Assembly (NCBI GenBank): GCA_022340745.1
Contig: JAJDNL010000265.1
Location: 1 to 40,698 of the forward strand
DNA length: 40,698 nucleotides
Origin: Deltaproteobacteria bacterium
GTDB taxonomy: Bacteria; Desulfobacterota; Syntrophobacteria; BM002
Reading direction: 5' to 3'
The notes under the pieces are model-generated. The model ran no database searches, was not told where the DNA came from, and saw nothing but the letters and a program-made list of their open reading frames with translations. The translations under genes were made by a program, and so were the position numbers. This document shows, one piece after another, positions 9,813-39,174 of this stretch. The first letter of the stretch is position 1. Each line of letters begins with the position of its first letter.

Positions 9813-10166
9813 TTATTGAAGTGACTCAAGCCCTTCAATTGTTTTCTCTGCGATGGTTCTTATCCTGTTATAATGTTTGATCCATCTTGTCAGACACTTT
9901 GCAGCCTCCTCGGCGTCTCCCAAGTGTCTTTCACAGGCCTCCATGCATTCCTTGGTTTTTTCTATGTTCACTTCTACATCTGCCGCCACTCTTTCGCCGT
10001 CATGCCTTATTGCCTCTTCTGGACACAAGTCATGACAAGTTCCACAGCGAATGCAATCTTCCATATTGATGGATGCCGTGTCATTCTCGAGTAATATTGC
10101 CCCCGAAGGACATTCCTCAACACAGTCACCACAACCTGTGCACATCTCTGACTGTACCCATGGCAT
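9813..10166 (-). CDS. 2[4Fe-4S] ferredoxin with helical tail
   Basis: A 117-residue protein from ATG 10166, chosen because GGAGG lies just upstream; an earlier in-frame Met at 10247 would overlap the preceding gene. Residues about 8-50 contain two ferredoxin motifs, MCTGCGDCVEECP and CIRCGTCHDLCP, each C-x2-C-x2-C-x3-C-P. The C-terminal 60 residues are helical with two Cys (KECMEACERHLG) and have no recognised domain. It sits at the end of the diaphorase genes and probably exchanges electrons with them. Confidence 0.85.
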   Translation of the reverse strand: MPWVQSEMCTGCGDCVEECPSGAILLENDTASINMEDCIRCGTCHDLCPEEAIRHDGERVAADVEVNIEKTKECMEACERHLGDAEEAAKCLTRWIKHYNRIRTIAEKTIEGLESLQ

Positions 10167-10236
10167 ACTGCATCCTCCCTCTAAAATTTTTGCCTGCGCC
10201 GCTCTGTCGATCACACCAAAACCCCTGTCGAGGTGA

Positions 10237-10929
10237 TTATTCGACAAGCATTCTCACTTTTGAGGAGTCCTCTGACCCAGCCGCTTCGGAGTACTCCGGT
10301 TTCAGCACGAGGGCACCGGTGGGACAAACGTTGGCGCAGGCAAGGCAGTGATGACAGGATAGATCTGCCGGGTCACCACTACCGAAAAATGCGATCATCG
10401 TGTCAAAGCCTCGGTTGGTAAAGGTCAACAGGTTCTGGCCGTTTCTTTGCCGGCAAATGTAAACGCACTTACCGCAAAGCACGCAGCGGAAGGGGTAGTA
10501 GGTGAAGAAAGTGAGATCGACTTCCTCGTCAACATCACGCTCAAGAAGCTCCAACGGCCTCGATTTCAAACCGACCTTGAGATGTTTGGCGATACGGATG
10601 AGCTGACAGCTACCCTTGACCGGGCACTCCTTTGGGTCACGGTGGTGCGCGGACATAAGCAATTTGAAGCCCATACGCTGAAGGCGCCTGACTGCTGGAG
10701 TGTCGGTCTTCACCAGCAAACCTTCGCGAACTTCCTCGGTGCATGAGGTCACCGGGCGGTCAAGACCGTCGATCTCCACAAAGCACAACCTGCACGAGGC
10801 GTGGGGATGCTCCCTCGTCTTGATAAAACACATATTGGGGATAAAAATCCCATTCTCAAGACACGCCTGAAGAACGGTTTTTCCCTCTTCTACCTTGATC
10901 TCTTTGTCATCGACTATTAGATTGATCAT
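10237..10929 (-). CDS. HoxU/NuoG-N-type Fe-S subunit of a diaphorase
   Basis: A 230-residue protein. The N-terminal plant-type [2Fe-2S] domain has C34, C46, C49 and C63. The next segment should bind a His-Cys3 [4Fe-4S] cluster, but only HHRDPKECPVKGSC is present: the middle Cys of the usual C-x2-C-x5-C is missing. Two [4Fe-4S] motifs follow: CVLCGKCVYIC and CHHCLACANVCP. This is the small Fe-S subunit fold of NAD-reducing hydrogenases and of NuoG. It is downstream of the NuoF-like gene and probably wires NADH oxidation to an unidentified partner. Confidence 0.85.
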   Translation of the reverse strand: MINLIVDDKEIKVEEGKTVLQACLENGIFIPNMCFIKTREHPHASCRLCFVEIDGLDRPVTSCTEEVREGLLVKTDTPAVRRLQRMGFKLLMSAHHRDPKECPVKGSCQLIRIAKHLKVGLKSRPLELLERDVDEEVDLTFFTYYPFRCVLCGKCVYICRQRNGQNLLTFTNRGFDTMIAFFGSGDPADLSCHHCLACANVCPTGALVLKPEYSEAAGSEDSSKVRMLVE

Positions 10930-10991
10930 AGTTGCTTTGGCTTCAACGTGATCCGGTACACTCCTTCAGTGGCGATGGAGGTGACCTTTGC

Positions 10992-12932
10992 TCAGTTGCT
11001 TGCCGATTTCTCCTCAGGAACTCGCTCGATAATGGGTGCCAGCTCCGGCGGCGAAACCTTTTCCACCGCGTCGTATTCCGGAGGACAAACCACCATACAT
11101 TCCCCGCATTTGACACATAACTCTTGGTCAATCGCCTTCTTTCTTCCCGTGGTTGTGAAAATAGCTTCCACTGGACAGCAACCAACACAGACATCACAGC
11201 CCCGAGCGCACTTTTCAAGGTCGATATAGTAAGCGGTGAGGGGCCGACACTTGAGGGCCGGACACCGCTTTTCCTTGACGTGTGCCTCGTATTCTTCGAA
11301 GAAATACTTAAGCGAAGTAAGTACCGGATTGGGTGCGGTTTTCCCCAGCCCACAAAGGGAACCATTCTTGATGTCCTCGCTTAGCGTTTGAAGAAGCTCC
11401 AGGTCCTCCTCCTGTCCTTCGCCCTTGGTGATGCGGTCCAAAATATTGAGAAGATGGCGGGTGCCGATTCGGCAAAAGGTACATTTGCCACATGATTCCT
11501 TTTGGGTAAAGTCGAGGAAATACCGGGCCACGTCAACCATGCAGCTGTCCTCGTCCATCACTACCATGCCACCTGAGCCCATCATCGCCCCTGCCTCGGT
11601 GAGGGAGTCGAAATCGATGGGGGTATCAAGAAAGCTTTCTGGCAAACAGCCCCCTGAGGGTCCGCCGATCTGTACTGCCTTGAAACCCTTCTTTTTCGGA
11701 ATTCCGCCGCAGACATCAAAGATGAGTGTCCTCAGGCTTGTTCCCATGGCAATTTCAACCAGCCCCGGGTGTTTGACGTTGCCGACTACGGAGAAAATGG
11801 CGGTGCCAGGGCTGCTCGCAGTTCCAATGGCTCTAAACCACTCTGCGCCTTTTTCTATGATAGAGGGCACGGAGGAGAGAGTCTTAACATTATTTACTAT
11901 TGTCGATCGCCCCCAAAGGCCTTTTTCCACCGGATATGGCGGGCGGTGCTGTGGCATTCCTCGCCTTCCTTCAATAGACTGAATAAGCGCAGTCTCCTCG
12001 CCGCAGACAAAGGCCCCGGAGCCCTGGAACACAGAAACATCTAGAGTGAAAGATGTGCCCAGAATGGAGGTGCCAAGGAGAGTAAGCTCTTTGCCGCTCT
12101 GTATCGCTTGTTTCATGGTTTTGACCGCAAGGGGGTATTCCGCCCTGACATAAATAATGGCCTTATCCGCCCCAACTCCATAAGCACAGATGGCAAGCCC
12201 TTCCAGCAACTGGTGGGGGTTGCTTTCAAGAATAGTGCGGTCCATATAGGCGCCGGGGTCCCCTTCATCAGCGTTGCAAATCACAATTCTTCCGTCCGTC
12301 TCCACGTCTCTTGCGATTCTCCACTTGCGGCCGGTGGGAAAGCCAGCACCGCCTCTGCCCCTCAGTCCCGAGGTTTCAATTTCACTGATCACTTCCTCGG
12401 GATCAGAACCCAGAGCCTTAACCAACCCGGAATAGCCCCCCTCGGCGATGTATTGATAAATGTCATCAGGATCGATGCGACCGCACTGTTCCATTACCAG
12501 TCGTTGTTCGAGATTAAAGCGCGGAAAGTCCATCACCGTGGGGAGCAAGTCGTTTGCCTCCATGGCGCCTAGCACGTATTTCAGGACGGGATCTCCTAGC
12601 TCCAGGTAACTTTTCACCAGGGTTCGCACCCTGCTTTCGTTGATTTGGTAATAACAGATGGGGGGAAACCCCGAGGCGGGATGATCGATTATGACTAAGG
12701 GTTCCGCATAGCAGTGGCCAAGACAGCCAACGGAAACGATCCGGGCTTCTATGGACTTGAGGGCAAGCTCTTGTTCAAAGGCCTGCTTGGTCTCGGCCGC
12801 CCCTGAGGCCAAGCCGCAGGTGGACATGACAATATAGATGGTGGGAATACCGTCGGTTTTTTTCTCTTCAGCCCGCTGGGCCGCTTCCCCTTGGATGGGT
12901 GCAAAACGTTTTTTGACATCGACCCTACTCAC
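10992..12932 (-). CDS. NuoF/HydB-type NADH:acceptor flavoprotein subunit
   Basis: A 646-residue protein. The N-terminus (about 28-115) is a thioredoxin-like [2Fe-2S] domain (STCGLASGA, VGCLGHC). The core has the NADH/FMN motifs RGRGGAGFPTGRKW and ICNADEGDPGAYMDR, then GGPSGGCLP, and the N3-type [4Fe-4S] ligand set ESCGKCTFCRIGT plus a downstream Cys in NGSLCGLG. Two C-terminal ferredoxin motifs follow (CDVCVGCCP and CVKCGECMVVCP). This matches the beta subunit of bifurcating hydrogenases and related enzymes, located in the cytoplasm. Start GTG 12932 overlaps the stop of the NuoE-like gene by 8 bp, implying coupled translation. Confidence 0.92.
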   Translation of the reverse strand: MSRVDVKKRFAPIQGEAAQRAEEKKTDGIPTIYIVMSTCGLASGAAETKQAFEQELALKSIEARIVSVGCLGHCYAEPLVIIDHPASGFPPICYYQINESRVRTLVKSYLELGDPVLKYVLGAMEANDLLPTVMDFPRFNLEQRLVMEQCGRIDPDDIYQYIAEGGYSGLVKALGSDPEEVISEIETSGLRGRGGAGFPTGRKWRIARDVETDGRIVICNADEGDPGAYMDRTILESNPHQLLEGLAICAYGVGADKAIIYVRAEYPLAVKTMKQAIQSGKELTLLGTSILGTSFTLDVSVFQGSGAFVCGEETALIQSIEGRRGMPQHRPPYPVEKGLWGRSTIVNNVKTLSSVPSIIEKGAEWFRAIGTASSPGTAIFSVVGNVKHPGLVEIAMGTSLRTLIFDVCGGIPKKKGFKAVQIGGPSGGCLPESFLDTPIDFDSLTEAGAMMGSGGMVVMDEDSCMVDVARYFLDFTQKESCGKCTFCRIGTRHLLNILDRITKGEGQEEDLELLQTLSEDIKNGSLCGLGKTAPNPVLTSLKYFFEEYEAHVKEKRCPALKCRPLTAYYIDLEKCARGCDVCVGCCPVEAIFTTTGRKKAIDQELCVKCGECMVVCPPEYDAVEKVSPPELAPIIERVPEEKSASN

Positions 12933-13461
12933 CGGATTCCCTTTCCGCTTTTTCCCTTTCCTCGCGTTCTCTTTCAACCTGAAATTGCACGAAAATGCCC
13001 TCCACTCTGCTTGGCTGGATGTGGCCTTCCACGGTATCGTCAACTACAGCAACGGGGGCCAAGGCACAGCAGCCCACGCAGGCTACCCTTTCGATGCTGT
13101 ACTCACGGTCAGGGGTGGTTTCCCCGTCCTTGATTCCCAACTTACGTTCAAAATTCTCCAGAATGATGTCCCCGCCAGCCACGTGGCAAGCGGTACCCAA
13201 GCACACTTTGAACTGGTGCTTGCCGGGCGGATGAAAGCGAAACTGGTTGTAAAAAGTTGCAACCCCATACACCTCGCTGGGAGAGATGGACAGGTGCTCT
13301 GCGACCATCTCCATGGCAGCCCCGGACAGGTAGGCATGCTTCTCTTGGATAGACTGAAGAATGGGAATGAGGTTTCCTCTCGACTTTTCGAAAAGAGGCA
13401 GCATGGCCGTTATCTCTTCGACCATTGCTCTTTCTTCACCAGCCAATTCGGGAGTTGTCAT
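12925..13461 (-). CDS. NuoE/HydC-type [2Fe-2S] subunit
   Basis: A 178-residue thioredoxin-like protein (ATG 13461; GTG 13467 is an alternative with a better-placed ribosome site). The [2Fe-2S] ligands are in CLGTACHVAGG and VACVGCCALAP, the C-x4-C and C-x3-C type pairs of NuoE. The helical N-terminal part includes LIPILQSIQEKHAYL, typical for the family. The C-terminus is highly charged (EREREEREKAERE). It forms the diaphorase with the overlapping NuoF-like gene. Confidence 0.92.
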   Translation of the reverse strand: MTTPELAGEERAMVEEITAMLPLFEKSRGNLIPILQSIQEKHAYLSGAAMEMVAEHLSISPSEVYGVATFYNQFRFHPPGKHQFKVCLGTACHVAGGDIILENFERKLGIKDGETTPDREYSIERVACVGCCALAPVAVVDDTVEGHIQPSRVEGIFVQFQVEREREEREKAERESGE

Positions 13462-13623
13462 GTACACGAAAATCACCGCCCTTCAACAATAATGAGCCTC
13501 CTCGTTCTCAAAAAACCCTCAAAAACACGATCATAGCCACCCTTCCGTGCTCAAATCATTGGATAGCCACCATCCCTCACCGCCGGATCGGTATACACCA
13601 CCTTTCCGATTGTTTTTGCTCCT

Positions 13624-14979
13624 TTAGGCTCTCAACTTTTGCAGTGCCTGCTCGGCGCAGATGGTAACGGGTTCAAGGCTCGGTTCAGAAGAACAATCCG
13701 GATTACCGGCACACATCAAGGTAGTAAGCTCTGCAATTGTTTTCCCCCCCAGGATCAGGGCATTTACGGTGTCGATCTCCTTTACAGGGGCTTCACTGTC
13801 GCTGATGATTTGACCCCCGATTACTTTTTGGCTTTCTTTGTCAAAAATCAGTTTTAGGGTCCAGGGCTTAACCCCTGGTATCATGCCGTGCTTACTCCTG
13901 GAATTCACCGTGGTGCTAATGGTCTCAAATCCTTCCTGATGGGCCAGCTCTTCAGTCAACCCCACTGAAGCAATAGACTTATCAAACAGCTTGACCGCTG
14001 AGTTGTTCATCACCCCGGGAAACTCGATATCGTATCCAGCCAACCGCTTTGCCGCGAGCCGACCTTGAATCACCGCTGGACCACGTAGTTGCCCGGTAAC
14101 CGGTCTCTTGGTAACAAAATGTTGCTTCTCCACACAATCCCCAGCTGCCATGACATCCGGAACCGAGGTTTCCAGGAATTTGTTCACCTTTACCCCAAAC
14201 TTACCAATCTCTACTCCGAGGTCCTTTGCAAGTTCCAGATTTTGCTTAACACCTATGGATACCAGAACCATTTCCGCATCAATCTTTTCTCCCGTTGCCA
14301 GCTCTACACCGGCCACCTTTCCATTTTGCCCGAAAACCTTTACTACCTTTTGACCCATCTTCATCTTGAAGCCTTTTTCAACAAGATATTCCTGGATCTG
14401 CACAGCCATTTCTGCATCCAGCATCAGCGGCAGCGGGTGACTCAAAAGTTCAATCACCGTTACATCATAATGATCCGGCTTGGTGCTGGCCAGCAGCGTA
14501 GCTACCTCGAGATTGATAAAACCAGCGCCTATCAATACTAGTTTCCGGCGGTTCTCTTTTTCGAGAAAATTGTTGATCTCGACCGCATCAGGAGCGCTTC
14601 TCAGCGAAAATACCCCCTCGAGATCACAACCTTCAATGGGAGGAACCACCGGACTTGCCCCTGTCCCCAAGAGCAGTTTGTCATAGGGCAGCTCTCTTCC
14701 ATCTGATAAGGTTATCTTTTTCTCCTCAGCATCTGCATGGGTTGCCCTTGCTATGACTAGATTAATGCCGGCATCCGCAAACATCTGGTCGGGGTTTGTA
14801 ATCGAGTCTACGGTGGCCACACCGGCCACCACGTGAGGGAGAGCTCACCGCACAATGAAACGCTCTTCTTCCCGGATAACGGTGACGTCCACCTCCGGCA
14901 TCAATCTCTTTGCCAGCATTGCTGCAGGGCCTCCTACCCCTCCCATTCCTACTATTACTAAGTGGTCTCCCTTCTTCAT
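13624..14979 (-). CDS. Selenocysteine-containing FAD-dependent NADH oxidase/CoA-disulfide-reductase-like protein
   Basis: Two collinear frames, 14979-14848 and 14844-13624, are joined in the same phase by a TGA at 14847-14845 (codon 45). The N-terminus has the FAD motif VIVGMGGVGGPAA. The sequence around TGA is FIVR-U-ALPHVVAG; family members have the redox-active Cys here (positions 42-43 in NADH oxidase and CoA-disulfide reductase). Downstream are LVLIGAGFINLEVA (NADH motif), VMAAGDCVE and a C-terminal dimerisation domain. A 7-bp GGTGGCC/GGCCACC hairpin with loop GGTGT starts 14 nt after TGA, as expected of a bacterial SECIS. Start ATG 14979 follows GGGAGGTG. The full length of 451 residues is normal. 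An alternative is a TGC-to-TGA error. Confidence 0.85.
14812..14830 (-). promoter_or_regulatory. Candidate bacterial SECIS hairpin
   Basis: On the minus strand, 14 nt after TGA 14847-14845, GGTGGCC pairs with GGCCACC around the five-base loop GGTGT. The apical loop is about 21 nt from the UGA and has G residues, as in elements bound by SelB. The stem can extend by G-U pairs. Confidence 0.7.
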
Positions 14980-15711: not shown

Positions 15712-16164
15712 CTACTCTTTACTGTTCTCAAGCTTTAACTTTTTCAACATCCACTCATGCAGGGCAACCTGGAGGGTTTCTGCGGCAAGCTTGGCACAGT
15801 GGACCTCTTCCTCTGGCAACCCTTTCAGGGCCTCGAGAATGGTTTCACCTCCAATTTGGGCAGCTTCGTCCAGACCCTTGCCGCCAGCCAGTTCGGCGGC
15901 CATTGAACCACAGGCTACACTGGAGCCGCAGCCGTCCGTAAAGAAATTTATCTCTTCAATGTGATCATTCCTTATGCGGAGATAGATCTCCATGGTATCG
16001 CCGCAAGGGCCGGTAATTCTCCCGACACTTGAGGCATCGGTCATTTTCCCCATGAACCTTGGGTTTTGCCATCTTGAAAAGACCTCTTCCCCATAGGTCT
16101 CTTTCGACTCTTCAAAAATCTGCTCCTGTAACTTGTCAACAAAATCGTCCATCGCATCTTTCAT
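15712..16164 (-). CDS. IscU/NifU-N-type Fe-S scaffold protein
   Basis: A 150-residue protein starting at ATG 16164 behind AGAGGTGGGG; earlier in-frame Met codons give a non-family extension. The three scaffold cysteines are present: GPCGDTMEI, GCGSSVACGSMAAEL and EEVHCAKLAAETL. IscU-type proteins assemble [2Fe-2S] and [4Fe-4S] clusters for transfer to apo-proteins. The protein is longer at the N-terminus than classical IscU. Its place among Fe-S diaphorase, ferredoxin and Nbp35-like genes suggests cluster supply for this locus. Confidence 0.88.
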   Translation of the reverse strand: MKDAMDDFVDKLQEQIFEESKETYGEEVFSRWQNPRFMGKMTDASSVGRITGPCGDTMEIYLRIRNDHIEEINFFTDGCGSSVACGSMAAELAGGKGLDEAAQIGGETILEALKGLPEEEVHCAKLAAETLQVALHEWMLKKLKLENSKE

Positions 16165-16260
16165 TGGAAAAATCCCCACCTCTGCCGTTGCTATGAAGTT
16201 TAAAATTTTCATCACACTGTTCATGTCCAAAGCAAAATTTTTCCAAAATAACACCTTCCC

Positions 16261-17316
16261 TCATAGTACCTTGATGACTACAATCGTGACGTCATCCTCC
16301 TGGGCGATGTTCCCGCAGAAGTCGCTCAGCGCTTTAAGCACCGCCTTTTTGATTATTTCCGCAGGTTTATCAGCATTTGCACGGATGATTTCATAGAAAC
16401 GCTGTTTGCCGAACATCTCTCCATCTGCGTCATGGGCCTCCCATATGCCGTCCGTGCCGAGACAGATGACTTGACCTTTCACCAGACCTAATTTTTCGTT
16501 TGCCTCATATTGCCAGTCTTTATCCACACCGAGAGCCATGCCCAAACCCACAAGTTCTTCGAACTGGTCGGTATCGGAGTTATAGAAAATGGCCGGGTCA
16601 TGTCCTGCGCGCACCCAGCGTAGGACTCGATCTGCTTGATCGATAGCCAGATAAAACAGAGTCATGTAACTCCCGCTTTCATAGGTGTCCACGGTCAGTT
16701 GCTGATTCACGCTTGTGACAACTTCAGCAATAGTCCCAGGTTGGACCGCCCGCATACGAAGAAAGGCCCGCGCCGTGGTCATGAGCAACGCTGCCGCCAC
16801 ACCGTGACCGGTCACATCTCCCACTACCACTGCAACTCCTTTGCAGTCCTCCCCGCAAGGGAAAAAGTCGAAATAATCCCCTCCCGTCTGCTCGCAATAG
16901 ACAGTTGTCGCGGCTATATCGAAACCGGGTATACTCGGAATCTCTTTCGGCAGCAGGTTCTGCTGCACCTCTTGAGCCACTTGCAGCGCTTGGCAGATGT
17001 TCATTCTGTCCTCGAGCTGGGGCACCATCTCGTTGAAGGCCCTGGCGAGCATGTCGCGTTCGTCGCCTGTGGCCACGTCCATCCTTGCTGAAAAGTCACC
17101 TTCCGTGAGTCGCTGCAGCTCCCCAATCATAACCTGCAGAGGCCTGGTCATTCTCAGGGAACTCCAAAAAGCCGTTACAGTCACGATGAGAATCACCACG
17201 ATTGCGGCTATTCCCGTGACGAACCACCGTTCTTGGAGGATTAGGGGAGTGAGCACGACTAGTGGCGTTATGCTGAAGACCAACAGAGTGATCAAAACTC
17301 GCCAACGCCTGCTCAT
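16261..17316 (-). CDS. Membrane-anchored HAMP-SpoIIE (PP2C-type) phosphatase
   Basis: A 351-residue protein starting at ATG 17316 behind AGGAG. Two membrane helices lie at about 8-26 and 33-53 (VLITLLVFSITPLVVLTPL; TGIAAIVVILIVTVTAFW). A HAMP domain follows (MTRPLQVMIGELQRLTEGDF). The SpoIIE/PP2C domain has metal motifs GGDYFDFF, VGDVTGHGVAAALLM, LGTDGIWEA and QEDDVTIVVI. Such proteins dephosphorylate Ser/Thr-phosphorylated anti-sigma-antagonists in partner-switching. No STAS or anti-sigma gene is adjacent; the Ser/Thr kinase at 26307 might be an opposing enzyme. Confidence 0.88.
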   Translation of the reverse strand: MSRRWRVLITLLVFSITPLVVLTPLILQERWFVTGIAAIVVILIVTVTAFWSSLRMTRPLQVMIGELQRLTEGDFSARMDVATGDERDMLARAFNEMVPQLEDRMNICQALQVAQEVQQNLLPKEIPSIPGFDIAATTVYCEQTGGDYFDFFPCGEDCKGVAVVVGDVTGHGVAAALLMTTARAFLRMRAVQPGTIAEVVTSVNQQLTVDTYESGSYMTLFYLAIDQADRVLRWVRAGHDPAIFYNSDTDQFEELVGLGMALGVDKDWQYEANEKLGLVKGQVICLGTDGIWEAHDADGEMFGKQRFYEIIRANADKPAEIIKKAVLKALSDFCGNIAQEDDVTIVVIKVL

Positions 17317-17417
17317 TAAAAGACTCCTCTCAATTCCATCTCTCACTCAGCTTTTAAAAGATCCGGAGGTTGGTTACTTCGCACCAGGTTCCCAGCCATT
17401 TGGCCCGCCCAACTGCT

Positions 17418-17564
17418 TCAGAACATATACAGTCGGAGGCGGTGATCCAGTGCGTGAAAGATGTTAAAGCGCGCCTCGAAACATTTGGCCAATCTTAGGG
17501 CCATGTCAAAAGCGTTGTCAGTTACATGGGAAAATTTTAAGGGTAACAATATTTTCTTGATCAT
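17418..17564 (-). pseudogene. UspA N-terminal remnant
   Basis: A 48-codon frame from ATG 17564 reads MIKKILLPLKFSHVTDNAFD, a standard start of a Usp domain, and continues with ALRLAKCFEARFNIFHALDH before a TGA at 17420-17418. The remaining two thirds of the fold are missing and no continuation is found in other frames downstream. It lies between the zinc-ribbon and phosphatase genes. Confidence 0.65.
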
Positions 17565-17583
17565 GACAGATAGTTCCGTCCGA

Positions 17584-17805
17584 TTATCGTTCCCGGCTCA
17601 TAACTGTGCCGCATGCTGGGCAATGGGTCTGCTTGCACGGAACCCCGCGCTGGTGAGTGGTTTTCTCGCCACAACTGGGACAGACGCACTCCCCATTGCT
17701 GCCCCCACCTAGACTACCACGGCGCGCGCGTCCACCTCCTCCACTGCCGCTGCTGCTCCGGCCACCGCCACCTTGTCTTGGTCCACTTTGACCTCGTCTT
17801 TGCAT
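17584..17805 (-). CDS. Gly/Arg/Ser-rich zinc-ribbon protein
   Basis: A 73-residue protein from ATG 17805 behind AGGAGG. Residues about 1-40 are low-complexity Gly/Arg/Ser; the C-terminus has ECVCPSCGEKTTHQRGVPC and HCPACGTVMSRE, matching the cysteine layout and tail of the protein at 1627-1845. The two are paralogues. A metal-bound ribbon is expected. It lies just downstream of FmdB. Confidence 0.78.
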   Translation of the reverse strand: MQRRGQSGPRQGGGGRSSSGSGGGGRARRGSLGGGSNGECVCPSCGEKTTHQRGVPCKQTHCPACGTVMSRER

Positions 17806-17833
17806 CACTATCCTCCTGACTGATTGCCGGACC

Positions 17834-18079
17834 TCAACCCCGGCGGCAGCTCCCCCCAGATGAACAGGGTGGAGTATCACATCGTTCTTCCTGCCCACAA
17901 CAGGTATGGCCTGTGTTGCTATTCGCCTTGTTAGTAAAAAAAGAGGCAGCTGACAGAATTCTACTCATTCTCTGTGAGCCACAGTCACTGCAGCAGATAT
18001 GCGTAGTGCTCTCCCCACCCACCAGCAGTTTCTCTGAAATAGTCCCACATTTCTGACACTGATATTCATAAATCGGCAT
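17834..18079 (-). CDS. FmdB-family zinc-ribbon protein
   Basis: An 81-residue protein beginning MPIYEYQCQKCGTISEKLL, the hallmark of the FmdB/CxxC-CxxC-SSSS family, with the second knuckle at ICCSDCGS. The C-terminus adds extra cysteines (HTCCGQEERCDTPPC). FmdB proteins are putative regulators, originally linked to formamidase and amidase genes. It lies 21 bp after the DUF59 gene. Confidence 0.88.
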   Translation of the reverse strand: MPIYEYQCQKCGTISEKLLVGGESTTHICCSDCGSQRMSRILSAASFFTNKANSNTGHTCCGQEERCDTPPCSSGGSCRRG

Positions 18080-18100
18080 GGTAACTTCCTTTATCCATCT

Positions 18101-18388
18101 TTAATCCTTCTCATCCAGGATCTTCTTCAGTTGCTCGCCGTGGATAAAACCATCCACGTGAACCTGTACACTCTTGACTCCCGGCACATTCAGGACTGCT
18201 TCTTTGATATTGATGCCCAGTTGAAAACCCAGCGGACATAAGACCGAGGTGGGGCGAAAGGTTAGCTCAACATCTCCGTCCTGACCCACCTTCAAATCTC
18301 GAACCAGTTTCATCCGCATCACATCCATACCGGTCTCGGGGTCTATGACCTGGGCTAGACTTTCCTCTATCTTTTCTGGCAAACCCAT
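18101..18388 (-). CDS. DUF59/MIP18-family Fe-S assembly protein
   Basis: A 95-residue protein from ATG 18388 with GGAG upstream. The N-terminal IEESLAQVIDPETGMDVMRM and the segment FRPTSVLCPLGFQLG resemble the DUF59/SufT/PaaD-like family, in which a conserved Cys assists Fe-S cluster maturation. It overlaps no other gene and follows the second MinD-ferredoxin ATPase by 13 bp. It is probably an auxiliary maturation factor for the Fe-S ATPases nearby. Confidence 0.85.
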   Translation of the reverse strand: MGLPEKIEESLAQVIDPETGMDVMRMKLVRDLKVGQDGDVELTFRPTSVLCPLGFQLGINIKEAVLNVPGVKSVQVHVDGFIHGEQLKKILDEKD

Positions 18389-18401
18389 GAAATGTGTTCT
18401 C

Positions 18402-19271
18402 CTAGCCAGCGACTCCCAGAATTTCTGCAAGAGCGCGCCACATCTTGTTGATTTCATCAGAGACGGTTCCATTACCATATTCAACGATAATTTTTTTCTC
18501 GACCAGGGCCTTGGAAACCACAGTATCGTAGGGAATCATCCCAACGAAATGAACTCCTGTTTCCTCACAGTAGCCACGAATCCTGTCACTCATCTCATGA
18601 TTCAGATCGTACTTGTTGATGCAGGCTGCGGCAGGAATATTGAAGTGTTTGGCCAAAGCCGCCACCCTCTGCATATCATGTATTCCGGCAAGGGTTGGTT
18701 CTGTGACAATGAACACCAGATTGGCACCGGTAACCGCCGAGATCACCGGACAGCCAATGCCTGGAGGGCCATCCACGATAATGAGATCCAGCCCCTTTTC
18801 CTCGGCTATCAGTTTGGCGTTGTGGCGGACTATGGTAACCAGCATGCCGGAGTTTTCTTCGGCAATACCCAATTTCGCGTGGACAAAGGGACCATAGCGG
18901 GTGTCCGACACAAACCACTCGCCACAGATGTTTTCCTGCATTTCGATGGCCTCAGACGGGCAGAAGTGGGCGCACACTCCACACCCCTCGCAATCCACCT
19001 TGTCCACCACATAGTCCTGACTGATGGCATCGTAACGGCAAAGCTCCAGACATTCGCCGCACTCCACGCATGCGTCCATATCAATGAAGGCGGTGTGTCC
19101 GCCGCGAAAGGACTCTCGTGACCGAATGCTGGGTTCCAGCAGGATAAAGAGATCCGCGGCATCCACATCAGCATCTGCCAACACTTTGTTTTTGGCCAGG
19201 GCTGCAAAGCAACCGGCGATGGAGGTCTTGCCGGTCCCCCCCTTACCACTGATAATGACAACTTCTTTCAC
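18402..19271 (-). CDS. MinD-type ATPase with inserted 2[4Fe-4S] ferredoxin domain (second copy)
   Basis: A 289-residue protein starting at GTG 19271 (AAGGA upstream). Deviant Walker A IISGKGGTGKTS; VLADADVDAADLF; a ferredoxin insert with CVECGECLELC and CEGCGVCAHFCP at about 65-110; Walker B and switch II in IIVDGPPGIGCPVISA. This domain order is that of the ParA/MinD ATPases of the Desulfovibrio ORP complex. The paired copy is at 19410. These proteins are thought to act in ORP complex positioning or assembly, though the biochemistry is unclear. Confidence 0.9.
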   Translation of the reverse strand: MKEVVIISGKGGTGKTSIAGCFAALAKNKVLADADVDAADLFILLEPSIRSRESFRGGHTAFIDMDACVECGECLELCRYDAISQDYVVDKVDCEGCGVCAHFCPSEAIEMQENICGEWFVSDTRYGPFVHAKLGIAEENSGMLVTIVRHNAKLIAEEKGLDLIIVDGPPGIGCPVISAVTGANLVFIVTEPTLAGIHDMQRVAALAKHFNIPAAACINKYDLNHEMSDRIRGYCEETGVHFVGMIPYDTVVSKALVEKKIIVEYGNGTVSDEINKMWRALAEILGVAG

Positions 19272-19289
19272 AGCATTATCCTTGTATCT

Positions 19290-19400
19290 CGTTGGCACCC
19301 TCTCCACCCATTGGGGGGAGAGGGCCAGGGTGATGGGGGGTAACGATCTGTTCACCCCTCACTCTAACTCTCTCCACTCGAGGGGAGAGAGAACTAAACC
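19290..19400. repeat. CTCTCC/GGAGAG intergenic repeat between the MinD genes
   Basis: CCCTCTCCACCCATTGGGGG followed by GAGAGGG forms one stem, and CTCTCTCCACTCGAGGGGAG another, separated by TGATGGGGGG and CACCCCTCAC, which also pair. It resembles a widespread class of bacterial palindromic repeats. It separates two otherwise tightly packed genes. Confidence 0.6.
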
Positions 19401-19409
19401 ACAGTAGTA

Positions 19410-20246
19410 CTACCTACATTTGTCTCGTATCGTTGCAAAAAGATCCTGGAACTTCACCCTGTATTCAGGAATAACGTCGATGATCATTTCGCCACGCGAG
19501 TAGGCCTCAGCTATCTGCCGATCCTCTGGAATCTCCATCAAGATAGGGATGGATCGCCCCTCGCAGAACTCTTTGACCGCCAGGTCACCAATGTCAGAGC
19601 GGTTGATCACCACTCCTGATGGTATGCCTAGTTCCTGGACGACTTCCGCCGCCAGTTCTAGGTCGTTGAGACCGAACGGTGTGGGCTCAGTGACCAGAAT
19701 GCAGAAGTCACTCCCTTTCACCGCTGCTATTACTGGGCAGGAGGTGCCTGGAGGGGAATCAATGATGACCAGACCGTTGACGTTGGCCAGTGCTCGGGCC
19801 GCCTTGATGAGGGGAGGAGACATGGCTTCTCCTACCTCAAGACGCCCATGGACGAAGTCCACAAAATGAGACACCCCCTGTTCCACAATCCCGATGGACT
19901 TTGGTATTTCCGAGATTGCCTCCTCGGGACAGACTTTGCTGCAGCCACCACAGCCGTGGCACAGCTCAGGAAAGACCAGCACATGCTCTTTGACCACGAC
20001 GATGGCGCTGAAGCGGCAAATCGTGGCGCATTCACCGCAGTAGGTACATTTGTCTAGATCCACATGAGGGCGAGGTACGTAGACTTCTTCACTCTTTTCA
20101 AGGTGCGGGTTCAAAAAAAGATGACTGTTCGGTTCTTCCACGTCACAGTCGATAAGCTGCACCCCTGCGCCGATTGATTTGGCCAGATTGGTCGCTATGG
20201 TGGTTTTGCCGGTTCCGCCCTTGCCGCTCGCTACCGCAATGATCAT
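19410..20246 (-). CDS. MinD-type ATPase with inserted 2[4Fe-4S] ferredoxin domain (first copy)
   Basis: A 278-residue protein. Walker A is VASGKGGTGKTTIATN; the ferredoxin insert has CTYCGECATICR and CHGCGGCSKVCP at about 67-110; switch II is IDSPPGTSCPVIAA. It is homologous to the downstream copy and to ORP-locus MinD proteins of Desulfovibrio. Start ATG 20246 has a GAGAGG ribosome site. The two copies probably form a heterodimer or act in sequence. Confidence 0.9.
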   Translation of the reverse strand: MIIAVASGKGGTGKTTIATNLAKSIGAGVQLIDCDVEEPNSHLFLNPHLEKSEEVYVPRPHVDLDKCTYCGECATICRFSAIVVVKEHVLVFPELCHGCGGCSKVCPEEAISEIPKSIGIVEQGVSHFVDFVHGRLEVGEAMSPPLIKAARALANVNGLVIIDSPPGTSCPVIAAVKGSDFCILVTEPTPFGLNDLELAAEVVQELGIPSGVVINRSDIGDLAVKEFCEGRSIPILMEIPEDRQIAEAYSRGEMIIDVIPEYRVKFQDLFATIRDKCR

Positions 20247-20276
20247 CCTCGTGTCCCTCTCTTATCTGCTGGTCTC

Positions 20277-20549
20277 TCACCACCTTCGGCCAAAAGTTCT
20301 TCCAAAGCCGAATCCTCCACCCCGAAAGCGGCTGCCGCCGCGGCCGCCACTCCGACGAAATCCTCTCCACCCAAAAAAGCCAGGGATGGGAGAATCATAA
20401 CGGGGATCACCATAACCATCTCCCCGTCGCCAGGGCAGAAAGGATGGACGGTTATAGCGAGGACCTCGCACGGGCATGGCGCAATAACCACGTCCTCTGC
20501 CCGTCATGGGTCCCATACCCCCCGGTCCGGTTCCGTCAAATCTTGGCAT
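20277..20549 (-). CDS. DUF5320-family Gly/Arg-rich protein (short)
   Basis: A 90-residue protein starting at ATG 20549 behind AGGAGGTGATC. The signature MPRFDGTGPGGMGPMTGRGR followed by GYCA defines DUF5320. The rest is Gly/Arg/Phe/Trp-rich low complexity (FRGGGFGFGRTFGRRW). No coiled coil is present, unlike its paralogue at 22993. DUF5320 genes commonly accompany NifX/ORP-like and Mrp genes in anaerobes; their function is unknown. Confidence 0.85.
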   Translation of the reverse strand: MPRFDGTGPGGMGPMTGRGRGYCAMPVRGPRYNRPSFLPWRRGDGYGDPRYDSPIPGFFGWRGFRRSGGRGGSRFRGGGFGFGRTFGRRW

Positions 20550-20561
20550 GTTGATCACCTC

Positions 20562-21203
20562 CTATTTCTTCTTTTCCAGCTTGCTTATCCTCTCCTCAAT
20601 CCGTTTCATCTGCTCTTGAAGTTTGTCTTTCTGGTTTTTCAATTCCACCAGGTCATTGGCAGAAGTGACCTGTGGCTCAGATGAATAGTCTCTGCCCATG
20701 CCCCGGCCCATGCCCCGGCCCATGCCTCGACCCATGCCCCGGCCCATGCCTCGACCCATGCCTCTGCCCATGCCTCGACCCATGCCTCTGCCCATGCCTC
20801 GACCCATACCCACACCCATACCGGTTTTATCGCCTGGGGTGGTTGTGCCGAAATTGGCTTCCACTGAGGGGCCAGCGGCCTCCTGCAGTTGGCCTTCGAT
20901 ATATTGCTGCAGGGCCTGGCGCACGGTTCCTGTCGCTCCGAGATAGACCTTCAGGCCGGTTGCCTCCAGGGTATCAGCGGCATTGGGACCCAGATTCCCG
21001 GTTATCACCGCATCCACTCCCGAGTTGGCTACCATTTGAGCAGCCTGTATCCCCGCGCCACCGCTCATCGTAGCGGCCTCGTTGTCGAGCACTTCCAACT
21101 CTTCGGATGCGGGATCAACCACTACAAAGCATTGACACCGACCAAAGCGTGGATCAACCTCGGCGTCGAGATCTGGTCCGGTGGATGAAATTGCGATTCT
21201 CAT
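20562..21203 (-). CDS. ORP/NifX-like protein with GMGR repeats and C-terminal coiled coil
   Basis: A 213-residue protein. Residues 1-115 form the dinitrogenase Fe-Mo cofactor-binding-like fold (MRIAISSTGPDLDAEVDPRF; GAGIQAAQMVANSGVDAVIT; GLKVYLGATGTVRQALQQY), as in orange protein and MTH1175. The middle (about 128-172) is a run of GMGR tetrapeptides. The C-terminal 35 residues are a charged coiled coil (KLQEQMKRIEERISKLEKKK), similar to the helical tail of the DUF5320 protein at 22993. It looks like a fusion of an ORP-like domain with DUF5320-like low complexity. It might bind a metal cluster. Confidence 0.87.
   Translation of the reverse strand: MRIAISSTGPDLDAEVDPRFGRCQCFVVVDPASEELEVLDNEAATMSGGAGIQAAQMVANSGVDAVITGNLGPNAADTLEATGLKVYLGATGTVRQALQQYIEGQLQEAAGPSVEANFGTTTPGDKTGMGVGMGRGMGRGMGRGMGRGMGRGMGRGMGRGMGRGMGRGMGRDYSSEPQVTSANDLVELKNQKDKLQEQMKRIEERISKLEKKK
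20695..20812. repeat. 12-bp tandem repeat coding for GMGR
   Basis: About ten 12-bp units of the type CCATGCCCCGGC / CCATGCCTCGAC, some fused or degenerate, encode Gly-Met-Gly-Arg on the minus strand. Two sequence variants alternate, consistent with expansion by slippage or unequal exchange. It is coding, not a CRISPR array. Confidence 0.85.
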
Positions 21204-21248
21204 AACGGTTCCTTTTTTGTTAAATTGATTGTTACTCTATTTGACTGA

Positions 21249-21581
21249 CTAGTGATCGCAGATATTTTGACCCGCGATCAAAGTTCCTTTCAGATAGTTC
21301 TCCACCAGTGCCTCTGGCGGAGAACTGGGAGCCCCGACAGTCACCTGAATACCCTTCTCATTGAAGAGGCCAAGCGCTCTCCGTCCCATACCGCCGGCTA
21401 TCACCACGCTTACTCCCAACTCGGCCAACCAGTTAGGCAGGACTCCAGGTTCGTGGGGTGGCGGAGTATGCAGTTCCTTCTCCCTGATTTGACCATCCTC
21501 TGTCTCAATAATGGCAAACTCCTGACAATGACCGAAGTGAGCACAAAGCACTCCCTCTGCCAACGGAATAGCGAATTTCAT
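21249..21581 (-). CDS. NifX/ORP-like cofactor-binding-fold protein
   Basis: A 110-residue protein with AGGAGG before ATG 21581. It carries the dinitrogenase Fe-Mo cofactor fold (MKFAIPLAEGVLCAHFGHCQ; SVVIAGGMGRRALGLFNEKG; GIQVTVGAPSSPPEALVENY). Two Cys lie in the metal-facing N-terminal loop (LCAHFGHC). It resembles the accessory protein type found beside orange protein in Desulfovibrio. Its role is presumably cofactor assembly or carriage. Confidence 0.85.
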   Translation of the reverse strand: MKFAIPLAEGVLCAHFGHCQEFAIIETEDGQIREKELHTPPPHEPGVLPNWLAELGVSVVIAGGMGRRALGLFNEKGIQVTVGAPSSPPEALVENYLKGTLIAGQNICDH

Positions 21582-21684
21582 ATCTTTCCTCCTTTTTTCC
21601 CAAGGTTTTCATGCGTTCCTACAATACCCGCGTTAACAAGACTCACTCACATCTCCGCGTCTCTGTATCTCCGTGTCCTGCTTT

Positions 21685-22047
21685 TCACACCCAGTGTCCC
21701 TCAACGTTAGCGTCTTTCGCATGGTCAAATTCGCCCCGGAGGTAAGCCTGGATGGCGTCCTCTATTGTGCCGCTGACCCCGACAACAACCTTGATCCCTG
21801 CGGCCTGTAGGGTCTTAAACGCCTTGGGGCCACAGTTACCGGTCAGAACCACTTCCGGCTCGTGGTTCGCCACGTTTTGTGCCGCCTGAATACCAGCCCC
21901 CTGGGGTAAATTGAGGCTTTGCTGATTTTCGGCCACCTGAAAATCCATGGTCTCAGAATCCACAAGCAAGAAGTGATTGGCCCGGCCGAACCGCGGGTCT
22001 ACCTCTCCTTTTAAATCTGTCCCTTGCGCTGTCACCGCGATAATCAT
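21685..22047 (-). CDS. orp: Orange-protein (ORP)/MTH1175-like protein
   Basis: A 120-residue protein of the same fold: MIIAVTAQGTDLKGEVDPRF, then GAGIQAAQNVANHEPEVVLT and GIKVVVGVSGTIEDAIQAYL. Length and motif order agree best with orange protein (Mo-Cu cluster-binding in Desulfovibrio) and MTH1175. It lies immediately downstream of the Mrp gene, which is itself fused or adjacent to such domains in other species. Metal content cannot be read from sequence. Confidence 0.8.
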   Translation of the reverse strand: MIIAVTAQGTDLKGEVDPRFGRANHFLLVDSETMDFQVAENQQSLNLPQGAGIQAAQNVANHEPEVVLTGNCGPKAFKTLQAAGIKVVVGVSGTIEDAIQAYLRGEFDHAKDANVEGHWV

Positions 22048-22066
22048 AGGTCACCTCTCCATACTT

Positions 22067-22993
22067 TCAGTGAGCTGCAGAAGTTATCTTGTCTTCTGCT
22101 TTCTCCGTTGCCCTGACCACAACTTGAGTTAAATTCTCAAAGGCCTTTCTTACCTCTGATGGGACTGGATCAATCACGAAGGGTGTCCCTGCATCGCAAC
22201 TGATCACCATCTTAGGGTCAATGGGGATGCGGCCCAAAAAGGGAACTCCCAGCTCCAGCGCGGCCCTCTCTCCGCCTCCCACCTTAAAAAGGTCGATCTT
22301 TTCACTGCAGTGAGGGCACACCATGCCACTCATGTTCTCCACAATCCCCAGCACTGGAATATTGAGCAGCCTGCTGAAATTGACCGCCTTTCTGGAATCC
22401 AACAAGGCCACGTCTTGAGGGGTGGTCACGATGATGGCGCCATCCACATTCTTGATCAGGTGGGCAACGCTGAGAGGCTCATCCCCAGTTCCGGGTGGAA
22501 GATCGATCACCAGATAATCTAGATCGCCCCAGTTCACATCCCCGAGAAACTGCCTTATGGCCGTGTGCTTCAGCGGGCCCCGCCAGACGATGGCTTTGTC
22601 CGGATCTTGCGACAGGAGTCCGGTGGATATGGTCTTCAAACCCTTGAAGACCTTTATCGGCTCTAAACCAACTCCATAACTCACGAGAGACCGGCCTTCC
22701 ACCCCACACATTCTGGGGATGTCTGGACCGTGAATGTCCGCATCCAGGACGCCCACCTCGTAACCCTGTAGGGCGAGGGAAGCGGCGAAATTTACGCTCA
22801 CAGTGCTTTTTCCCACTCCACCTTTGCCGCTCATGACCATGATCTTGTTGCGGATGTGAGACAACTTCTGCCCGAGCCTCGCTTCTTCATGGTCCTCCTT
22901 TTCCTTCGAGGAACAGGCAGTTTCCTTTTTGCAACCACTGCAGCTTTCAGTCAGATCACACTTTTCCTTTTCCATATCTATATCCTTAGTCAT
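22067..22993 (-). CDS. mrp: Mrp/Nbp35-type Fe-S carrier ATPase
   Basis: A 308-residue protein from ATG 22993, which overlaps the stop of the DUF5320 gene (TAATG). A Cys-rich N-terminus (CDLTESCSGCKKETAC, C-x5-C-x2-C-x5-C) resembles the [4Fe-4S] site of Nbp35. Walker A is MVMSGKGGVGKST; VLDADIHGPDIPRMCG; LVIDLPPGTGDEPLS; and a C-terminal CPHC that bridges a second cluster between subunits. Such proteins deliver Fe-S clusters in the cytoplasm. It probably serves the MinD-ferredoxin and ORP-like partners of this cluster. Confidence 0.92.
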   Translation of the reverse strand: MTKDIDMEKEKCDLTESCSGCKKETACSSKEKEDHEEARLGQKLSHIRNKIMVMSGKGGVGKSTVSVNFAASLALQGYEVGVLDADIHGPDIPRMCGVEGRSLVSYGVGLEPIKVFKGLKTISTGLLSQDPDKAIVWRGPLKHTAIRQFLGDVNWGDLDYLVIDLPPGTGDEPLSVAHLIKNVDGAIIVTTPQDVALLDSRKAVNFSRLLNIPVLGIVENMSGMVCPHCSEKIDLFKVGGGERAALELGVPFLGRIPIDPKMVISCDAGTPFVIDPVPSEVRKAFENLTQVVVRATEKAEDKITSAAH

Positions 22994-23358
22994 TATCTCT
23001 CCTGCCCAGTTTCGATCTCGCTTAGTCTCTGCTCGATAGCGTTTAGCTCTTCCTGCAACCAGGCGGCCTCTTCCCGGAGGATAGCCAGTTCGTCTTCTTG
23101 GGAATGAGACGGGCCGTAGTCTGGTTCCCACGGTCCGTGATAACCTCCCCGCGGAGGAGGGTACATCCCCCCCCACCGAGGCATGCCGGTTGCCCAGTAT
23201 CGGTGCCGCCAGCCTCTGCCCCAGCCTCGGCCATACCCTCGGCCGTAGCCCCAGAACCGCTCGCCGCCGCCATAATAACCACGCGAGCCACACAACCCAC
23301 GTCCCCATCCTGTCATAGGACCCATCCCTGCAGGTCCTGTTCGATCAAATCCTGGCAT
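22993..23358 (-). CDS. DUF5320 protein with C-terminal coiled coil
   Basis: A 121-residue protein with AGGAGG upstream of ATG 23358. The N-terminal signature is MPGFDRTGPAGMGPMTGWGR followed by GLCG; the middle is Gly/Tyr/Trp/Arg-rich (GYGRGYGRGWGRGW); the last 35 residues form a coiled coil (LREEAAWLQEELNAIEQRL). The gene is translationally coupled to mrp. The arrangement is standard for the family; function unknown. Confidence 0.87.
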   Translation of the reverse strand: MPGFDRTGPAGMGPMTGWGRGLCGSRGYYGGGERFWGYGRGYGRGWGRGWRHRYWATGMPRWGGMYPPPRGGYHGPWEPDYGPSHSQEDELAILREEAAWLQEELNAIEQRLSEIETGQER

Positions 23359-26108: not shown

Positions 26109-26115
26109 ATGAAAG

Positions 26116-26293
26116 TGGTGGACGCCCAACCTGCGACAAAGGTCAGTCAGAATGATTCTGTCACTGCCATTCTTCGGATCTTTGAGCCCAGGTCGAGTCG
26201 CTACCGGGAATGCGCTCGCCCTGTTGAATTTCCCGCAAGGAACCCTATGCAACTGAGCGAGCTACAGCATTATCATAGAATATCCGGGCGAGG
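26116..26293. repeat. Degenerate palindromic repeat between genes
   Basis: The interval contains GAGTCGCTACCGGGAATGCG, a GCGCTCGCCCTGTTGAA segment and the right-end-like ATAGAATATCCGGGCG of the 6499-6816 element family. The frame of the downstream gene is open through it, but this is repeat sequence and not the coding start. Confidence 0.45.
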
Positions 26294-26306
26294 TGGAACA
26301 AAACGT

Positions 26307-27986
26307 ATGGCAAAGCGTCGGGTCTTAATCATCGACTCCCAAGAACAAGACGTCCGAAATTTGAAAGACATTCTGGAAGATGACGGCTACCAGGTAGCTG
26401 TGGCTTTCAACGGCCAAAATGGCCTAGAATTATCCCAAACCTTTTTCCCTGGATTAGTGCTCTTGGCGATTCAGAGCCAAGGTCTCAGAGGATTGAAGAT
26501 TCTCCAAAGTCTGAAAAAACGAATGATCACGAAAGATGTGCCGGTTCTTATCCTTCTCGAGAAATTTGATGAGGAGTATGCAGCCCAGGGGTTGCACATG
26601 GGAGCGGCAGACTATCTGCTGAAGACTGCCAGCAAGGACTTGTTGCTACGCAGGGTCGGCGTGTTAGCCCGAATTCGCCAGCTGGATCGACAGAGGCGGG
26701 AAATCATTTCCAGATATCGGGAATTTTTTGATGGTGAACAGTACGGTTTGTTTCTGTGCAGCCGAGAAGGGCGATTTCTGGATGCAAATCAGAATCTGGT
26801 CAGGATGCTGGGTTACGACAGTAGAGAGGAACTGCTTGACTCAGACATCACCAAAGGTCTCTACTGGGAACCGAAAGATCGTGAGCACCTTCAAAAGGTT
26901 ATCGAGACACAGGGCTCTATCAAGAACCATAAAGTGAACTTTAGACGCAAAGATGGCCAGAAGGTTACCATCTTGCTCAATGGCCAGGTTGTACGCGATC
27001 AAAGTGGCGCCATAATAGGCTATGAGGGCTACGACATAGATGTAACTGGGCAAACAAATGCTGCAGAACCTTCGGAGGACCATCCCGACGAACACCGATT
27101 CCTCGGCAGATTCCTAAAACAGTTAATTCCTAAGGTGCTACCTTTCAGCGGTGATTTTTTCTCCTTGATGAAGATGACTGAGTTGATCGCCGAACGTTAT
27201 GAAAAAATTGAGCGTCTTGGACGTGGTAGTTACGGTGAGGTCTGGAAGGTGCGAGATACAGAAAGGGAAGGGCGTGTTCTGTATTACGTGGCCAAGATCC
27301 CTAGGAATAAGAACTTCAATGATAAATTTCGCAAAGAGGCAGATATTTGCCAACAGTTGGAAGGCCACCCTAACGCCATCAAGATAGTCGATGTGGTGGA
27401 ACATCGTGGCCGGGTTGTATTAATCCAAGAATTTGTGGAAGGGCGCTCGCTGCTAGAACTAATGTTCGGGTCTATGGAGGAGTCGGAGAAAGAAAGAATA
27501 ATCCTTCAGTTGGTGGACGTTGTCGCCCACGCCCACAAGAACCGGATTGTACACAGGGATATCAAACCGGAAAATGTACTCATAGGCAGTGATGGACTTC
27601 TCAAACTCTTGGATTACGGCGTCGCCAAAGAATTGAAAGATAAAAAAAGTAGTAGCACCATGGTCGGGTCCAGGCCCTACATGGCTCCTGAGCAAATTAT
27701 GGGTCAGAGTCAGATCGCGAGTGATGTCTGGGCTCTTGGCGTCGTCATCTATATGTTTTATACTGGTTTGCTACCTTTTGTTGAAGCGAATCAAAAGGCC
27801 TTGATGGACCTTATTCTCACCCGGGAACCGGATCCTCCCAGACAGATCGAGCCTGATATCCCAGCGGAACTCGAGCAGATTATCCTGCAGTGCCTCAAAA
27901 AGGATCCGAAAGAACGGTTTGCTGATGCAGAGGTTCTTAAAAAAGCCATACTGGATACTTTTCCCCAGTTCGGCAGGAGTAGTTAA
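26307..27986 (+). CDS. Pseudo-receiver-PAS-Ser/Thr protein kinase
   Basis: A 559-residue protein from ATG 26307 (GAGGTGG upstream). Residues 4-120 resemble a response-regulator receiver, but the phospho-acceptor position is Ala54 (FPGLVLLAIQ) and the first acidic pair is reduced (LIIDSQEQD), so it should not take a phosphate. A PAS domain spans about 135-250. The Hanks-type kinase (about 297-555) is complete: GRGSYGEV, VAK (Lys330), HRDIKPEN (416-423), DYG (436-438) and APE. There is no membrane segment. It probably relays a signal sensed by PAS into Ser/Thr phosphorylation. It is downstream of the sigma54-driven small gene. Confidence 0.88.
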   Translation: MAKRRVLIIDSQEQDVRNLKDILEDDGYQVAVAFNGQNGLELSQTFFPGLVLLAIQSQGLRGLKILQSLKKRMITKDVPVLILLEKFDEEYAAQGLHMGAADYLLKTASKDLLLRRVGVLARIRQLDRQRREIISRYREFFDGEQYGLFLCSREGRFLDANQNLVRMLGYDSREELLDSDITKGLYWEPKDREHLQKVIETQGSIKNHKVNFRRKDGQKVTILLNGQVVRDQSGAIIGYEGYDIDVTGQTNAAEPSEDHPDEHRFLGRFLKQLIPKVLPFSGDFFSLMKMTELIAERYEKIERLGRGSYGEVWKVRDTEREGRVLYYVAKIPRNKNFNDKFRKEADICQQLEGHPNAIKIVDVVEHRGRVVLIQEFVEGRSLLELMFGSMEESEKERIILQLVDVVAHAHKNRIVHRDIKPENVLIGSDGLLKLLDYGVAKELKDKKSSSTMVGSRPYMAPEQIMGQSQIASDVWALGVVIYMFYTGLLPFVEANQKALMDLILTREPDPPRQIEPDIPAELEQIILQCLKKDPKERFADAEVLKKAILDTFPQFGRSS

Positions 27987-38817: not shown

Positions 38818-39174
38818 ATAAGTCCACCAGTAAGACGCAAGCCGTTTTACTTGTCACTCGCTCATAAGCATCCGCTTCAGAATATTAAATCAAAAGTAAT
38901 TGAATCCCAAACTCTGATGAACGTGGGATCGACTTCTTCAGGGGTGACAGAAAGGCCGGGTCATATCTGCTTTTCCCACTTGATTGACCCAATTTAATAT
39001 ACAACCATTCGCACTACCAGAAAGGAGGTGACAACGAAAACAAAAGACCGCCTCCTCCCACAAAGGTTGCTATCAAGCGAAAAACCTTGTCGATTCTAGC
39101 GGTTGATCTGATTACTGACTACGGGAGGACTGTGGCATTGGTTTCAAAAAAACCAACAGATGGGAGGTCAAAAC

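Follow-up and report, generated by a model that had tools for sequence, protein, structure and literature searches.

An apparently undescribed U[A/S]LPH branch of predicted selenocysteine-containing CoA-disulfide-reductase-like flavoproteins in Desulfobacterota

The CoA-disulfide reductase/NADH oxidase family was first predicted to hold selenoproteins in 2006, when an "NADH oxidase" of Geobacter metallireducens was reported (PMC1794560), and reviews carry one entry for the family, an FAD-dependent oxidoreductase/CoA-disulfide reductase with the motif UGxP (PMC9312934, PMC13188914). A deep-learning screen from 2025 listed another, different FAD flavoprotein (PMC12013277). The UGxP selenoprotein (COG0446, TIGR03385, WP_011365774.1) and the gene analyzed here are alike in family and in the predicted placement of selenocysteine (Sec) at the catalytic Cys position, and the UGIP relatives seen here have a hairpin directly after the UGA, as does the present clade. 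However, the two proteins share ~30% identity, the motif of the present clade is RU[A/S]LPH and not UGxP, YAPPxS is missing from it, and the two form separate clades with Cys lineages between them, which sets this clade outside the UGxP subfamily. The closest solved structures by profile and fold comparison were the NAD-dependent persulfide reductase NoxA-3 of Archaeoglobus fulgidus (6pfz) and CoADR-RHD of Bacillus anthracis (3icr/3ict). Both carry Cys where the selenoprotein has Sec (27-34% identity), and their longer chains are extended at the C-terminus (by rhodanese in the case of CoADR-RHD), an extension that the selenoprotein lacks. Another flavoprotein selenoprotein of Desulfobacterota (COG1252, motif HxxU) belongs to a different family, which was absent among the selenoprotein's NCBIfam matches listed. 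In the main text of the openly accessible papers searched, the U[A/S]LPH clade was not described, and it is apparently a distinct, undescribed branch of an already known selenoprotein family. The proposal of Sec in a flavoprotein made in the initial annotation of this DNA is supported; the earlier Sec prediction in the family was not noted there.

The gene occupies positions 13,624-14,979 on the minus strand of the window, i.e., the whole 40,698-nucleotide stretch of DNA that was analyzed. Preceded by an SD-like GGGAGGTG, a single frame of 451 codons (451 aa including Sec45) runs from the ATG at 14,979 to a TAA ending at 13,624 and is interrupted solely by the TGA at 14,847-14,845 (residue 45), which lies in the context FIVR-U-ALPHVVAG. 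That one TGA parts two halves of the same frame, and that it falls on the catalytic Cys of the family, had both been read from the letters of the sequence; the first was confirmed by frame and translation and the second by a profile search, in which residue 45 aligned with the catalytic Cys both in A. fulgidus NoxA-3 (6pfz) and in the CoA-disulfide reductase of P. horikoshii (5l1n). The read-through protein contained the Pfam domains Pyr_redox_2, Pyr_redox and Pyr_redox_dim (FAD, NAD(P) and dimerisation). Its top NCBIfam match was CoA-disulfide reductase TIGR03385 at 255.9 bits, and a second sequence (L085) reached 263.8 bits, both below the cut-off of 578.8; scores of the clade were far under every NCBIfam cut-off, and the superfamily is therefore shared with TIGR03385 while equivalog membership is not. 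The AlphaFold2 model (mean pLDDT of 78.7, low near residues 40-60 and 426-432) presented the family fold and placed residue 45 where the active-site helix (44-55) begins, in a region of low local confidence. Comparison with folds in the PDB placed the A. fulgidus persulfide reductase, CoADR-RHD and CoA-persulfide reductase nearest to the model. With FAD, NAD(P) and dimerisation domains and a single redox Cys/Sec on the active-site helix (low local model confidence), the predicted product is a member of the CoA-disulfide reductase/NADH oxidase/persulfide reductase superfamily.

Codon 45 was compared across relatives at increasing breadth. A search of 60 relatives yielded seven orthologues (56-77% identity) with one TGA each, and a scan across 84,980 species, each represented by a single genome, found 34 loci, with TGA at the same place in 34/34. 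Further TGA forms and the first Cys forms came from wider whole-genome searches. Across the resulting 64 distinct related coding sequences (CDS), codon 45 was TGA in 58, TGT in five and TGC in one; no other codon occurred, in keeping with the initial expectation that this column should hold either Cys or TGA. The TGA form was found in the isolates Desulfoprunum benzoelyticum DSM 28570, Desulfofustis glycolicus DSM 9705 and Desulfatitalea alkaliphila, as well as in metagenome-assembled genomes of Desulfobacteraceae, Desulfobulbaceae, Syntrophobacteraceae and the lineage Eth-SRB2. The protein alignment was gapless across the TGA and nearly invariant around it, and both halves were conserved in all homologues. 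At the UGA position, Cys was present in six close homologues, each a single uninterrupted gene, and in wider CoADR/Nox relatives. By these sequences the TGA form is common to dozens of related sulfate-reducing bacteria, and because so many relatives share it at the reactive site, a genuine selenoprotein branch is indicated. As such genes would normally be annotated as truncated or broken, it has been easy to overlook a conserved redox enzyme of Desulfobacterota.

Immediately 3′ of the UGA, a bacterial SECIS-like hairpin, GGTGGCC-GGTGT-GGCCACC, was identified at 14,812-14,830 on the minus strand (stem arms 14,830-14,824 and 14,818-14,812, loop 14,823-14,819), starting 14 nt after the TGA. It had been annotated initially as a 7-bp hairpin at this distance; position and sequence hold, but the outermost of the seven pairs was kept in only 47% of relatives, and the conserved core consists of the inner 6 bp with a GGUCU-type loop. 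Pairing statistics were drawn from 34 distinct sequences, numbered with the U of UGA as 1. In these, the stem 19-24/30-35 was 94-100% paired per position, and three pairs were never broken despite pair-keeping changes, namely 20-34 (UA, UG, CG), 21-33 (GC, GU, AU) and 22-32 (GC, GU). Between the UGA and the G-containing loop (GGUCU/GGUGU) lie 21 nt, a spacing in the range of bacterial SECIS elements. When 8001 start-by-loop combinations over the gene were ranked, the hairpin came first (all six pairs in 94% of sequences), tied with the same stem read one base in. Codons 51-54, which lie in the hairpin, had the four lowest third-position entropies among 119 four-fold-degenerate codon columns; the chance of four given sites being the lowest four is 1/C(119,4), or ~1 in 8 million, assuming independent sites. 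Adjacent to the hairpin, all four third bases were used at Val50. Rfam produced no match for the hairpin, either at gathering or at E≤10, and single-sequence folding was unremarkable (z = -1.26); it is the comparative evidence that lifts the predicted element above chance. In the wider set, six Sec forms paired 5/6 and the remaining Sec forms 6/6, compared with 5, 4, 3, 3, 2 and 2 of the six pairs in the six Cys homologues, and the four Cys homologues that were folded no longer formed the stem-loop. Retention of the hairpin in TGA homologues and its decay in Cys homologues (2-5 of six pairs) thus agree with the initial proposal, as a matter of degree, because one Cys form (L111) pairs 5/6, as do six Sec forms.

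The source genome (3.9 Mb, 95.8% complete, a draft assembly of 301 contigs) was searched for the machinery of Sec incorporation. All four components named in the initial annotation were present: selA (630 bits), selB (402 bits), tRNA-Sec, the product of selC (75 bits against a gathering score of 47), and selD, each above its cut-off. Both selA and tRNA-Sec were also found in 10/10 tested relatives with the TGA form. The selD gene of the source genome (L102, G000:C46:2093-3016) itself contains one in-frame TGA, and its SelD is probably a selenoprotein as well. In the flavoprotein gene, the hairpin that closely follows the UGA would bind SelB, which would bring Sec-tRNA to the ribosome, so that translation would go on through codon 45.

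In a tree of 47 family members, the selenoprotein clade received 100/100 support and stood apart from two other TGA-bearing groups with the motifs UPTP and UGIP, the latter fitting the known UGxP selenoprotein. After Cys homologues were added, the branching order was L072n4-type Cys enzymes, L112-L114 (Cys), L111 (Cys) and then the Sec clade. Flanked in this way by Cys enzymes (L111-L114 and L072n4-L087n2), the clade would have made its own switch, and the tree supports a change from Cys to Sec separate from that of the UGxP selenoproteins. Support for L111 outside the Sec clade was moderate (87/83), and L111 may therefore have obtained its Cys through a later return from Sec. Overall, these results point to more than one Cys-to-Sec switch within a single flavoenzyme family. 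One genome (G587, contig C1) carries the enzyme in both versions, Sec and Cys (L142 and L143), the Cys form pairing 4/6 in the hairpin, and offers a natural pair for testing the contribution of selenium.

An in-frame UGA in a conserved frame, Cys in homologues, a stem-loop and Sec machinery in the same genome are thus found together, and with a probability of about 0.93 we read this locus as a true selenoprotein gene in which UGA is recoded, encoding an FAD reductase of the family with Sec45 and with Sec uptake separate from the UGxP forms. Because the window comes from a 301-contig draft assembly, the TGA could in principle stem from faulty sequencing or assembly, or from a nonsense mutation that arose recently, in a normal gene or pseudogene with Cys or Trp at codon 45. 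This is extremely improbable given the same TGA in 58 distinct CDS from many genera, isolates included, the conservation of both halves, and the confinement of the strongest synonymous constraint to the hairpin. Resequencing to TGC or TGG had been named as what would overturn the initial call, and the occurrence of TGA in dozens of independent genomes, including three isolates, answers it. A mechanically called 402-aa ORF begins at GTG 14,832, and translation could accordingly be imagined to stop at the TGA after a 44-residue peptide and to yield a shorter flavoprotein separately. However, the short ORF would be without the N-terminal FAD-binding strand, the glycine-rich loop and the redox residue, and neither the gapless, nearly invariant alignment over the TGA nor the six uninterrupted Cys homologues fit such a split, leaving it just as implausible. 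As far as sequence can do so, sequencing error, a pseudogene and two separate genes are excluded.

The redox site of the clade (RU[A/S]LPH) has an invariant Arg before and an invariant His after the Sec position, while other family members mostly have xCG[L/I]PYY. In known CoADR, the YAPPxS motif sits at the active site of the partner subunit, with its Tyr facing that site. No YAPPxS-type motif was found in the selenoprotein; the clade-wide C-terminal motif A[C/G][N/H]PDxSSEP aligns with it and stands in its place, here within CAGNPDCSSEP (residues 423-433; 13,681-13,713, minus strand). The literature searched yielded nothing on CoADR Tyr361/Tyr419. Of the readable Sec forms, 52/57 had a Cys at position 425 or 429 but not at both, versus 0/6 Cys forms. 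Five Sec forms (L130, L145, L146, L147 and L148) had Cys at neither position, and three of these were also without Cys at 423. An obligatory Sec-Cys pair, which had held perfectly in the first 33 readable sequences, was consequently rejected when it failed in 5/57 after wider sampling, and going by these sequences the Cys at 425/429 is possibly accessory at most.

By analogy with its relatives, the product would presumably be a homodimer in which NADH reduces FAD and FAD then reduces Sec45. Family chemistry suggests that the Sec45 selenolate would attack a small substrate at its S-S or S-SH bond, and that the mixed selenenylsulfide arising from this would be cleared by the flavin. The likely role is to reduce a persulfide or disulfide at Sec45 at the expense of NADH, and in sulfate-reducing bacteria the substrate may tentatively be placed among low-molecular-weight persulfides, polysulfides and disulfides. 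As proposed initially, Sec at this position may also shift the enzyme's redox potential and its reactivity toward polysulfide, disulfides or peroxide. NADH oxidase and NADH peroxidase also belong to this family, Sec suits peroxide chemistry, and rubrerythrin lies directly downstream of the gene in three relatives (L095, L097 and L101), all of which would suit a recoded enzyme whose selenium takes O2 or H2O2 in place of a disulfide or persulfide. Rubrerythrin linkage is nonetheless limited to these 3/35 loci, and both fold and profile comparisons rank a persulfide reductase and CoA-disulfide reductases highest, making an oxidase or peroxidase an unlikely, if serious, contender to the reductase. 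Somewhat more doubtful is a redox centre made of Sec45 and Cys425/429 of the other subunit, as in thioredoxin-reductase-like enzymes. The skewed distribution of this Cys between Sec and Cys forms, and the alignment of its motif with one located at the partner subunit's active site in known CoADR, speak for such a centre, whereas the five Sec forms lacking Cys at either position speak against it, and the loop is poorly modelled in what is a single-chain model only. Equally speculative is a reading in which this Sec enzyme of sulfate-reducing bacteria evolved independently and had its active site rebuilt, with the invariant Arg44 and His49 flanking Sec45 and, mostly, Cys425/429 supplied by the partner subunit; a selenenylsulfide would then form between the subunits, and the substrate would not be CoA-disulfide.

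Directly downstream of the selenoprotein gene on the minus strand lies a gene for a NuoE-like [2Fe-2S] thioredoxin-like ferredoxin (12,925-13,476; PF01257), possibly co-transcribed with it, followed by a NuoF-like NADH-binding subunit (10,992-13,043; TIGR01959, 457 bits), which is a neighbor only. Together with HoxU/NuoG-N-like genes and a Fer4 protein, these make up an NADH-oxidising electron-transfer module (9,813-13,476, minus strand), and the NuoE/NuoF/HoxU-like linkage was not conserved beside the selenoprotein gene in relatives. Upstream, a NifU-like protein is encoded at 15,712-16,254 (minus strand; PF01592), and a NifU-related gene was located within ~5 kb of the selenoprotein gene in six other loci. 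Synteny comparison of 35 loci revealed no neighbor common to most of them, and gene context therefore says little on function. Among relatives, NifU-, NifX- and MinD-like genes were neighbors in several, thioredoxin-like genes in five and rubrerythrin in three; such neighborhoods fit redox and sulfur metabolism and do not name the substrate. In four relatives, a Cys-type flavoprotein with the motif VPCGIPY[M/I]FGTL (L072, L074, L075 and L087) adjoins or lies near the selenoprotein gene, and these flavoproteins count among the clade's nearest Cys relatives.

The source genome also encodes a second Sec paralogue of the family (L055, G000:C90:25716-27029). Its type has the motif VSF[S/T/A][A/T/S]UPTPYYIGD followed by a hairpin, ATTACATC-GG[T/C]-GATGTAAT, and forms a separate Sec clade; further UPTP-type paralogues occur in the genus or family (L026-L028, L030-L032, L035, L036 and L043). 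Elsewhere in the window, large ORFs joined over other TGAs proved to be ordinary neighboring genes, for example at 16,263 between a SpoIIE-type phosphatase and the NifU-like gene. The minus-strand set at 15,712-23,308 comprises the NifU-like gene, the SpoIIE-type phosphatase with HAMP, two MinD/Fer4 ATPases, a NifX-like protein (Nitro_FeMo-Co) with DUF5320, and Mrp, and parts of it recur near the selenoprotein gene in several relatives. On the plus strand, the window encodes a Ser/Thr protein kinase fused to receiver and PAS domains (26,109-27,986), a histone-deacetylase-family protein (28,168-29,121) and a family III CoA-transferase (39,160-40,662).
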